Part shown: piece by piece, positions 596 through 2,308 of the stretch | How positions within the stretch are numbered: position 1 is the stretch's first letter | Layout: every line of letters starts with the position of its first letter | Assembly: GCA_028868395.1 (NCBI GenBank) | Contig: JAGWUO010000026.1 | Coordinates: 1 to 9,358 of the forward strand | DNA: 9,358 bases | Reading direction: 5' to 3' | Origin: Cytophagales bacterium | Lineage (GTDB): Bacteria; Bacteroidota; Bacteroidia; Cytophagales; Spirosomataceae | Made by a program: the position numbers and the translations under genes | The notes under the pieces: generated by a model | What the model was told of the DNA's origin: nothing | What the model saw: the letters and a program-made list of their open reading frames with translations, nothing else | Databases searched by the model: none

Positions 596-1084
596 ATGGA
601 GGGGATTTCATTAGCTGATTTGTACAAGTTCGACGAGATCTATTGGGTCCCGCAGGATAAGTCAGAGTCGCAGCTAGCGGAATCCCCTGCTATTGTCGTG
701 GAGGAAGAGGCTATTGCGGCGGTAAAGCCTAAGATCTCCACTCCTTGGGTGGTCGTAGGCCAAATCGCCGAAACCGAACTTGCTCGTTTAAAACTCATTT
801 TCTCTGCTCCTCCATTAGTGTTAGGGCCATCCGATTGGTCTGTCTACACACCAACAGATGAAGAACCAAGCTTCTCAGAATTCCTGAAAGAGACGAGCGC
901 AAAACGCTATATCTTTATCGGTCAACAGCCGGCTGTTTGGCAAGGTGAATTACCTACCACCGAGATTGATACGATTGAATCAAAATTAGTCTATTTCTTT
1001 CCACGCTATATTTCGTCGTTGACGGATGCGGAGAAGACGCTGAAGATGGCGTTTTGGAATGCGTTGAAAGAGATGAAAGGGTAA
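596..1084 (+). CDS. Hypothetical protein, possible DNA polymerase III psi-like (HolD-like) subunit
   Basis: I do not firmly recognise this 162-residue protein. No signal peptide or membrane segment is visible, so it is probably cytoplasmic. The N-terminus contains DLYKFDEIYWVPQ, followed by an acidic, low-complexity linker (about residues 22-44, rich in E, A and V). The core from about residue 49 has alternating hydrophobic strands (WVVVGQIAETELARLKLIF, then KRYIFIGQQPAVWQGELP). It ends in SSLTDAEKTLKMAFWNALKEM. That ending resembles the 'SL..P..K..LW..L' pattern at the C-terminus of the clamp-loader subunit psi (HolD), and the overall length and strand pattern are compatible. This is a fold-level guess, not a motif proof. 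The gene starts 9 bases after purA and is probably in its operon. Its TAA stop forms the first half of a linker-like TAAGTC that opens the hairpin array. It is a real gene rather than a shadow ORF: its spacing to purA is tight, its codon use matches the neighbours, and nothing conserved lies on the other strand. Confidence 0.8.
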   Translation: MEGISLADLYKFDEIYWVPQDKSESQLAESPAIVVEEEAIAAVKPKISTPWVVVGQIAETELARLKLIFSAPPLVLGPSDWSVYTPTDEEPSFSEFLKETSAKRYIFIGQQPAVWQGELPTTEIDTIESKLVYFFPRYISSLTDAEKTLKMAFWNALKEMKG

Positions 1085-1312
1085 GTCGACTTCGTCTTAG
1101 TCACGACTTCGTCGTTTAGTCGCTGCTGCGCAGCTTAGTCATCCTTCGGATTTAGTCACGACTTCGTTGTTTAGTCGGCGCGTTTCGCCTTAGTCACAAA
1201 GTGTCGACCCTTTGACCAGGCGACGAAGTCGCGACTAAGCTGCGTAGCAGCGACTAAATCGCGCAGCGATGACTGAGTCACGTAGTGACGACTATACGAG
1301 CGGCTTCGCCGC
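1082..1312. repeat. Array of compensating mini-hairpins separated by TTAGTC linkers
   Basis: The whole convergent gap is built from one pattern: linker TTAGTC, then a short palindrome with a 3-base loop. Left half (plus sense): linkers at 1097, 1116, 1135, 1152, 1171 and 1190, with a degenerate TAAGTC at 1082. Hairpins are GAC-TTC-GTC (1088), ACGAC-TTC-GTCGT (1103), GCTGC-TGC-GCAGC (1122), ATCC-TTC-GGAT (1141), ACGAC-TTC-GTTGT (1158), GGCG-CGTTT-CGCC (1177) and ACA-AAG-TGT (1196). Right half (inverted): linkers GACTAA at 1233 and 1252, GACTGA at 1271, GACTAT at 1290. Hairpins are GCGAC-GAA-GTCGC (1220), GCTGC-GTA-GCAGC (1239), ATCGC-GCA-GCGAT (1258), GTCAC-GTA-GTGAC (1277) and GCGGC-TTC-GCCGC (1300). 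The last of these lies inside the tsaD coding end. Full units are 19 bases. Bases 1205-1219 at the switch point fit no unit. The position suggests a role at the two transcript ends, such as RNA 3' protection or termination, but there is no T-tract. Function is unknown. Confidence 0.93.
1116..1257. repeat. Long-range 25-base inverted repeat within the hairpin array
   Basis: Bases 1116-1140 (linker, GCTGC hairpin, linker) and 1233-1257 are reverse complements at 24 of 25 positions. The only difference is in the loop (G at 1128 opposite T at 1245), which would still pair as G-U in RNA. The arms are 92 bases apart. A transcript through the region could therefore fold either as a row of small local hairpins or as one long stem with the central units in its loop. 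The single-strand pairing is read directly from the sequence; which fold occurs is not known. Confidence 0.88.
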
Positions 1313-2308
1313 GAGCTCGTACCTCGCCAGCGGACTCACATCCTGACCACAAAATTCCCCCGCTTCTGCCTTAAAATGTCCCGCCATGGCGATCATGCCT
1401 GCATTATCGGTGCAATAGCTGAAAGCTGGAATGAAAACTTCCCAACCTAATTCAGAACCCATTTCTGTCAGTCGAGTGCGTAAACCGGAGTTAGCTGAAA
1501 CGCCACCGGCGATGGCGATTTGAGTGCAGTTCATTTCCTTCATTGCCTTTTTCGTCTTGCGAAGAAGCATATCGATGAGGGATTTTTGAACGGAGGCGCA
1601 GATGTCTGCTTTGTTTTCTTCGATGAAGTTGGGGTTGTTTTTGATTTCTTTTTGGAGGAAGTACAGGATGGCTGTTTTGATGCCTGAAAAACTAAAGTTG
1701 AGGCCGGGCATTTCACCTAGTGAGAAGGGGAAGCGGTCCGGGTTACCTTCTTTGGCTAACTTATCGATCAACGGACCACCCGGATAAGGTAGGCCGATCA
1801 GTTTTGCCGTTTTGTCAAAGGCCTCGCCCACGGCATCGTCCTGCGTTTCGCCAATGACCTCCATGTCGAGTGCCGATTTTACCCAAACCAATTGCGTATG
1901 TCCGCCACTCACGGTTAGGCAAAGGAAGGGAAATGTGGGCTTAGGATCCTCAATAAAATGGGCCAATACGTGCGCCTGCATATGATTCACCTCGATTAAC
2001 GGGATGTTCAAACTTAAGGCCAAAGACTTCGCAAACGAGGTGCCGATTAATAAAGCTCCTAAAAGCCCTGGGCCCCTTGTGAAGGCAATGGCATTCAGTT
2101 CATTTTTGTTTATATTTGCTTTTTGCAGGGCCTCTGTCACGACAGGGATGATCGATTTTTGATGAGCTCTGCTGGCTAATTCGGGAACGACGCCACCCCA
2201 TTCCGTGTGGATGAGTTGTGTCGAGATGATGTTAGACTTCAAAACGCCGTCTACCATGACAGCGGCCGAAGTTTCATCGCAAGAAGATTCAATAGCCAGT
2301 AGCTTCAT
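1292..2308 (-). CDS. tsaD: tRNA N6-threonylcarbamoyladenosine transferase TsaD
   Basis: TsaD transfers the threonylcarbamoyl group from threonylcarbamoyl-AMP to A37 of ANN-decoding tRNAs (t6A), working in the cytoplasm with TsaB and TsaE; none of these partners is in the window. The protein has 338 residues, the usual bacterial length. Visible in order are: LLAIESSCDETSAAV (residues 3-17); GPGLLGALLIG (79-89); the metal-binding pair in HMQAH (His109, His113); SGGHTQLV (134-141); DDAVGEAFDKTAKLIGLP (157-174); NFSFSGIKTA (204-213); AGGVSAN (267-273); and the metal-ligand Asp301 in YCTDNAGMIA. The start fits, because the conserved N-terminus begins at residue 3. The final residues AAKPLV are encoded by the outermost hairpin of the neighbouring array, and the TAG stop lies in an array linker, so the tail looks repeat-derived. 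The gene is divergent from tamB (32 bases between starts) and convergent with the gene after purA. Confidence 0.98.
   Translation of the reverse strand: MKLLAIESSCDETSAAVMVDGVLKSNIISTQLIHTEWGGVVPELASRAHQKSIIPVVTEALQKANINKNELNAIAFTRGPGLLGALLIGTSFAKSLALSLNIPLIEVNHMQAHVLAHFIEDPKPTFPFLCLTVSGGHTQLVWVKSALDMEVIGETQDDAVGEAFDKTAKLIGLPYPGGPLIDKLAKEGNPDRFPFSLGEMPGLNFSFSGIKTAILYFLQKEIKNNPNFIEENKADICASVQKSLIDMLLRKTKKAMKEMNCTQIAIAGGVSANSGLRTRLTEMGSELGWEVFIPAFSYCTDNAGMIAMAGHFKAEAGEFCGQDVSPLARYELAAKPLV

Follow-up and report, generated by a model that had tools for sequence, protein, structure and literature searches.

Mini-hairpin arrays with a constant GACTAA linker and unlike neighbouring stems in a clade of Aquirufa

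The intergenic palindromes in a 9,358-nucleotide stretch of Cytophagales DNA, the whole of which is referred to here as the window, belong to a repeat family. Its unit joins a 6-nt GACTAA linker to a hairpin whose stem has 3-5 bp and is closed by a C-G pair, with a GNA triloop in most cases. From the genomes searched, the family appears to be confined to one clade of freshwater Aquirufa. Comparison of its sequences suggests that the fold is kept while the stem letters are free to vary, and adjacent units rarely carry the same stem (4 of 573 pairs, against 44.3 expected from within-chain shuffles). An initial annotation of the window had noticed the array, and its observation is both real and general.

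The window array (positions 1088-1312) is intergenic and lies between two convergent genes (Table 1). Direct reading of the sequence gave 11 hairpins and a central palindrome, which account for the twelve palindromes that were annotated. Spacing was 19 bases, as reported together with one 17-base, 4-pair unit (ATCC); further exceptions were 15 bases (first unit), the centre and 23 bases (last unit). The annotated linker, TTAGTC or its complement, was found as TTAGTC in the left arm and as GACTAA, twice, plus the variants GACTGA and GACTAT in the right arm, and the listed stems were recovered by reading and by the strict and relaxed hairpin counts. Two features had escaped notice: the whole array is inverted about its centre (1196-1219), and the usual loop is GNA on the GACTAA-reading strand. 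The outermost hairpin (1300-1312) is nested in a longer palindrome, ACGAG..CTCGT. Array sequence also supplies the last part of the tsaD frame together with its stop codon (1292-1339), and the frame length varies slightly among clade genomes.

Table 1. Features of the window array and its two flanking genes
Feature	Position	Strand	Remarks
162-aa gene, left of the convergent pair	596..1084	+	no Pfam match; stop codon abuts the array
Left arm	1088..1195	-	six hairpins, TTAGTC linkers; the - strand reads GACTAA + hairpin
Left-arm hairpin	1088-1096	+	3 bp
Left-arm hairpin	1103-1115	+	
Left-arm hairpin	1122-1134	+	
Left-arm hairpin	1141-1151	+	4 bp; the 17-base (ATCC) unit
Left-arm hairpin	1158-1170	+	one G-T pair
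Left-arm hairpin	1177-1189	+	4 bp, 5-nt loop
Centre between the inverted arms	1196..1219	none	CAAAG/CTTTG palindrome
Right arm	1220..1295	+	four 5-bp GNA hairpins: GCGAC, GCTGC, ATCGC, GTCAC
Right-arm hairpins	1220-1232, 1239-1251, 1258-1270, 1277-1289		
Right-arm linkers			in order: GACTAA, GACTAA, GACTGA, GACTAT
tsaD, right of the convergent pair	1292..2308	-	final codons and stop written in array sequence
Outermost hairpin	1300..1312		GCGGC-TTC-GCCGC, loop inverted; in the 3' end of the tsaD frame

Strict Watson-Crick hairpins with 5-bp stems and 3-nt loops numbered 17 in the whole window, seven of them within 1082-1312, and outside about 800-1320 there were at most two per stretch of comparable length. 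When G-T pairs and 4-bp stems were allowed, 10 were counted in the array versus up to 12 elsewhere in the window; the relaxed count being unexceptional, the case is carried by regularity and linker, not by hairpin number. The folding z-score of 1082-1320 was -7.7 as DNA and -8.1 as RNA, with none of 200 shuffles as good, and the predicted minimum-energy fold was dominated by arm-to-arm pairing. Tandem Repeats Finder reported the left arm only (1087-1176, 69% match), and no Rfam family matched the window at the gathering score.

The unit was examined through the linker alone, using spacers of 5-40 nt between successive GACTAA motifs in the clade loci and the window (n = 598). Spacers of 9 nt (95), 11 nt (54) and 13 nt (345) made up 494 of these; none had 7 nt, and the sole 15-nt spacer paired at 5 of 6 positions. 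Pairing was perfect in 90 of the 95, 50 of the 54 and 305 of the 345, respectively, compared with 35, 36 and 52 after shuffling of the 3' arms. As the pattern used to retrieve the loci already implied one CGNAG unit, a fair test is provided by the 13-nt units that it did not demand (n = 108), of which 94 were perfect (shuffled mean 10.9, maximum 20). The loops of 800 perfect hairpins, duplicates removed, were GNA in 624, ANA in 84, inverted TNC in 27 and others in 65, giving 176 non-GNA loops. The hexamer after GACTAA and a perfect 5-bp hairpin was again GACTAA in 305 of 450 cases, and the next 14 commonest hexamers (110 cases) also start with GAC. A longer linker, GACYYTTTGACTAA, which gives a 27-nt spacing, was seen in the clade loci and in genome G008, and many arrays are bordered by it on their inner side.

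Covariation was then scored on 60 two-unit rows taken from the 228 distinct ones found. Cells paired in 98.7% of cases versus 70.1% after shuffling, two-sided changes were seen at all 10 pairs (for the two closing ones, in a single row each), and covariation scored 0.88 versus 0.31, a signal that was abolished by sliding the partner. The perfect 5-bp stems were of 29 kinds, 28 of which are connected via single-pair changes. The annotated idea that shape is kept over stem sequence thus holds as far as pairing and two-sided changes go, but covariation alone is no proof of selection, since template switching can also give compensated change.

Between species, first-pass ortholog counts were discarded, as units that are not orthologous had been aligned with each other in many pairs. 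The strict set, which excludes one chained group of 34 arrays, comprised 47 unit comparisons from 147 array pairs. In this small sample, 37 stems were identical, five differed by compensated pairs only and five by single changes. Loop positions 1, 2 and 3 had changed in 2, 12 and 0 of the 47 units, and linkers differed at 12 of 564 sites. When compared by their flanks, the 133 arrays fell into 37 positional groups, of which 13 contained a single array and one, of 34, consisted of chained neighbours. A flank was common to another array in 120 of the 133, and counts over genomes are therefore not independent. Array positions are thus mostly common to species while the contents turn over, sometimes via whole-block duplication (L130, L082).

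With regard to a MITE-like origin, the arms are inverted, but the tsaD locus offered no clean empty site, since the sequence there differs in the other five clade genomes. At the ortholog of window 1085-1320, four of these five (G031, G021, G003, G014 and G024) carry different head-to-head inverted short-repeat arrays, of CAAAG../CTTTG, AGAGTA.. and CACAAAG.. types; G024 has a CTTTGTG-type stretch at which its contig ends. Several non-clade species have yet other inverted repeats at this site. Elsewhere, in contig C1 of G008, convergent gaps near 1015656, 1076000 and 1246753 hold inverted arrays of TAGACAG, TATAGAG and AATGGTA types.

The pattern GACTAA-N4-CGNAG-N4-GACTAA was found in 10 of 99 relatives, namely in 10 of 38 Aquirufa genomes and in none of 61 others, which excludes the outcome 'nowhere else' that the initial annotation had named as refuting. 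The backward control pattern was absent from the 10 carriers and matched once in each of two other genomes. The nearest searched relative, G001, had 31% of words in common with the window. The ten carriers coincide fully with the set of genomes having a TsaD 97-99% identical to the window's, the next being 91%, and the family thus seems confined to one Aquirufa clade. A scan of species genomes yielded 108 stretches, 101 of them labelled Cytophagaceae, Aquirufa or (one MAG) Spirosoma. In the seven non-Cytophagaceae stretches and three viral contigs, linker-bounded spacers never paired at more than 3 of 5 positions, and these matches were therefore ascribed to chance. A two-unit covariance model matched at least 10 of 149 relatives, the ten pattern carriers, with at least 12 to at least 45 matches per genome; as about 42 candidates per genome were scored under strict filters, these counts are floors and weak kin could be missed. 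A dialect with another linker in other Aquirufa was unsupported, since a 6-mer spacing scan of 400 kb sampled from G034, G017 and G011 gave nothing like GACTAA at 19.

The arms are chains of up to 16 units. Same-stem neighbours were absent in 7 of the 10 genomes, two of which (G031 and G024) have an expectation below 1. At lags 2, 3 and 4, same-stem pairs were at or above the shuffled level (43 versus 36, 39 versus 28 and 34 versus 20.5). Neighbours able to form 4-5 cross-linker pairs from the linker outward were likewise scarce (4 versus 39 expected). Unequal-length neighbours pairing by at least 3 bp across the linker made up 8 of 320 (0.025 versus 0.042 shuffled, 32 of 1000 shuffles being as low), a weaker depletion than that of same-stem neighbours. 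Tandem blocks of different units were enriched: ABAB occurred 19 times versus 5.7, ABCABC 8 versus 1.5 and ABCDABCD 6 versus 0.3 in shuffles. The ABAB cases are confined to 5 chains, and in one of these two stems take turns over 13 units. We suggest that the arrays act as a folded single strand, in which independent hairpins would stand in a string with the linkers free. Neighbours would then have to differ because, in identical ones, the 3' arm could pair with the next 5' arm and hide the linker in a 6-nt loop. The neighbour rule is a better argument for selection than covariation; it was not met in the open-licence literature searched and is new here.

A single stem transition appears as G-T on one strand and as A-C on the other, so that mismatch bias informs on the folding strand. 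On the GACTAA strand, 70 single mismatches included 35 G-T and 13 A-C (p = 0.002), and distinct sequences alone gave 29 and 13 (p = 0.02), a modest asymmetry. By model energy as DNA, the GACTAA strand was the more stable in 302 of 302 units, albeit slightly (-4.04 versus -3.70 kcal/mol), whereas as RNA it was so in 54% of units, with no clear preference; the energy model used gives no bonus for GNA loops. Exceptional stability is reported for DNA hairpins that combine a GNA loop with G-C pairs (PMC4686876). Taken together, the G-T excess and the invariance of the C-G closing pair and of G and A in the loop speak for the GACTAA strand as the one that folds, as DNA more than as RNA. The GACTAA strand is thus the probable folding strand. 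With less certainty, the folded form would be single-stranded DNA exposed during replication or transcription and not mRNA: a fixed C-G closing pair and fixed outer loop bases (G and A) around a free middle one match the constraint of the DNA hairpin d(cGNAg), which is very stable.

Could the neighbour rule reflect mere instability, with adjacent identical units being lost by slippage between 19-bp direct repeats? Identical neighbours do place long direct repeats on either side of a hairpin, an arrangement especially prone to deletion, which speaks for this reading. Homology-driven deletion should, however, also strike ABAB-type blocks, and these and longer tandem blocks are enriched in spite of their longer homology. 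Simple slippage loss thus does not explain the unlike neighbours, and the rule points to folding; the depletion, though weak, of unequal-length neighbours pairing across the linker argues the same way. We regard slippage as unlikely. Mutational self-perfection, in which hairpin-promoted template switching would copy one stem arm onto the other in a neutral or selfish family without host function, deserves a little more credence, though we still doubt it. Template switching yields compensated changes, perhaps aided by exceptionally stable loops (PMC8794818); the inverted TNC loops might be footprints of such events; and nearly all stems are connected by single-pair changes. Alone, however, self-perfection does not predict that neighbours are unlike, that an unpaired linker is conserved or that GNA outnumbers TNC (624 versus 27). 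Foldback copying between arms was not supported: in 39 two-armed arrays, same-locus arms were slightly less complementary than permuted ones (0.318 versus 0.354; 4958 of 5000 permutations at least as high). As same-locus arms are unmatched, a long inter-arm fold is seemingly not what is kept.

The genomic places of the arrays bear on another reading, that the hairpins are an mRNA 3'-UTR structure which shields the mRNA of the abutting gene from 3' exonucleases or ends transcription. In array-selected loci with mechanical gene calls, 53 of 102 array regions were convergent, 34 tandem and 15 divergent, while all intergenic regions of these loci comprised 110, 284 and 113, respectively. Furthermore, where an arm follows a gene and runs the same way (109 arms), it starts at a median of 21 nt past the gene end; at one locus in seven genomes (L093, L107, L120, L130, L140, L147 and L149), the arms flank a conserved terminator-like centre with a T-tract (U-tract in RNA); and hairpin clusters near stop codons have been reported as terminators (PMC8355165). 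The divergent regions stand against this reading, as do the single arms in ++ tandem regions, which read either way (8 versus 6, plus 3 two-armed; 5 versus 4 in -- regions), the lack of a clear strand preference in RNA folding, and the fact that the abutting mRNA is the TTAGTC strand, whose commonest single departures are A-C, not G-U. In an unselected 300 kb of G008, also with mechanical gene calls, there were 59 units as well as 8 array regions, 4 of the 59 units lying inside ORFs, and among regions of at least 60 bp, arrays occurred in 2 of 14 convergent, 6 of 38 tandem and none of 23 divergent ones. Convergent regions not being richer than tandem ones here, the 3'-end preference rests mainly on the array-selected loci. 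No hairpin followed by a U-tract was found in window 900-1500, while centres at some other loci look terminator-like by eye. We hold the 3'-UTR reading to be doubtful but credible; if the annotated guess of an RNA 3'-end structure is taken to mean one of the abutting gene and nothing else, it agrees poorly with the strand evidence and with arms that are not tied to the direction of transcription in tandem regions. Arm orientation was always TTAGTC left and GACTAA right: of 131 array clusters, 38 had a left-type followed by a right-type arm, 93 were single-armed and none was reversed.

The centres differ among loci, several being terminator-like by eye. A TTGACA..TGTCAA-type palindrome recurs in the array centres of L076, L094, L135, L143, L150 and L152. 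In L061, L095, L106 and L155, a small ORF lies between the left-type and right-type arrays; by eye, its product presumably resembles four-helix-bundle 23S rRNA intervening-sequence proteins.

The nearest known kind is REP/BIME repeats, which are small palindromes with an unpaired tag at one end; their numerous copies lie mainly downstream of genes, frequently as inverted pairs and sometimes in clusters, with heterodimers preferred in most families (PMC3733652). The Aquirufa arrays are likewise many intergenic palindromes with an unpaired end tag and inverted pairs, and in a wide sense they are REP-like, given the counts from the 300 kb of G008 and the 38 two-armed clusters among 131. However, the tags and stems described there (GTAG/CGTC; 6-13 or 8-9 bp) differ from GACTAA and 3-5 bp, and the Aquirufa arrays show many stems per genome, the neighbour rule and no RAYT found in the carriers. 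They possess neither the unpaired GTAG and the 6-13 bp stem of GTAG REPs, whose genomic RAYT was not found in the carriers, nor the CGTC/TGTC/CCTC tag, 8-9 bp stem and 4-5 nt loop of CGTC REPs, the tag end being AGTC, the stem 3-5 bp and the loop 3 nt. That the family is a REP/REPIN one moved by a RAYT (Y1) transposase, as palindromes with an unpaired conserved tag in intergenic inverted pairs might suggest, is very improbable: PF01797 was found in 12 of 38 genus genomes (10 above the cut-off) but in none of the 10 carriers, the GTAG tag is missing and the stems have only 3-5 bp. The carrier genomes are 73-99% complete, three of them 96-99%, and the PF01797 control matched in 5 of 14 known genomes. 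A RAYT may have been lost after the family spread. Among other candidates, a reverse transcriptase partner (5 of 38 genus genomes, 3 of 10 carriers) did not fit, and an IS91-type Y2 transposase was found in none of the 38, its control also matching nowhere. Spread by phage or plasmid found no support, window 1060-1330 having no match at E 0.01 among phage and plasmid records.

REPINs, too, have inverted palindromes as the unit (PMC3116915), whereas the Aquirufa arms are mutually unmatched chains with no RAYT found in carriers. Short hairpins fill intergenic DNA in Volvox organelles as in Aquirufa and are regarded as selfish there; these repeats have common sequence motifs, TAAA/TTTA loops and plastid stems of 5-29 nt, a regular linker or spacing not being mentioned in the portion concerned (PMC2670323). 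Sponge and fungal mitochondrial elements are reportedly also short intergenic hairpins (PMC2800124, PMC7218506). In the terminator clusters of PMC8355165, several hairpins come right after the stop codon, as here, but the abstract mentions neither a repeat family nor a linker, nor any rule of covariation. d(GCGAAGC)-type DNA mini-hairpins have a GNA loop closed by C-G as the Aquirufa units do, but they are a chemical motif, not a genomic repeat (PMC4686876). CRISPR was rejected, the constant part being only 6 nt and the variable parts being palindromes from a small shared set. No description of such a hairpin-array design was found in the open-licence literature, in line with the annotator's own impression.

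The account that we favour, read from sequence patterns, is that of a folded GACTAA single strand with unlike neighbours and a REP/BIME-like role at gene boundaries; taken whole, we think it might equally well prove right or wrong. Such an element would stop read-through or exonucleases, or a protein would bind the free linkers. The arrays would have grown via duplication of blocks of different units, and the family would have spread in the clade ancestor, with a mover not found among the families searched. It may be a replication- or ssDNA-related element or a propagating repeat family, a replication-related site and a self-propagating family both being among the guesses of the initial annotation. 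A more specific proposal, possible though short of an even chance, is that the arrays represent a folding-code repeat class, in which a small stem alphabet would provide mutually orthogonal hairpins with non-cross-pairing neighbours and would leave the linker accessible, at gene boundaries, to a protein or process dedicated to it. Tandem repeats usually have like neighbours, whereas here the neighbours are kept unlike and the fold alike. The arrays are therefore a natural, testable system for asking whether selection acts on folded single strands in bacterial chromosomes, and they could separate selection from template-switch mutation as the source of compensated changes.
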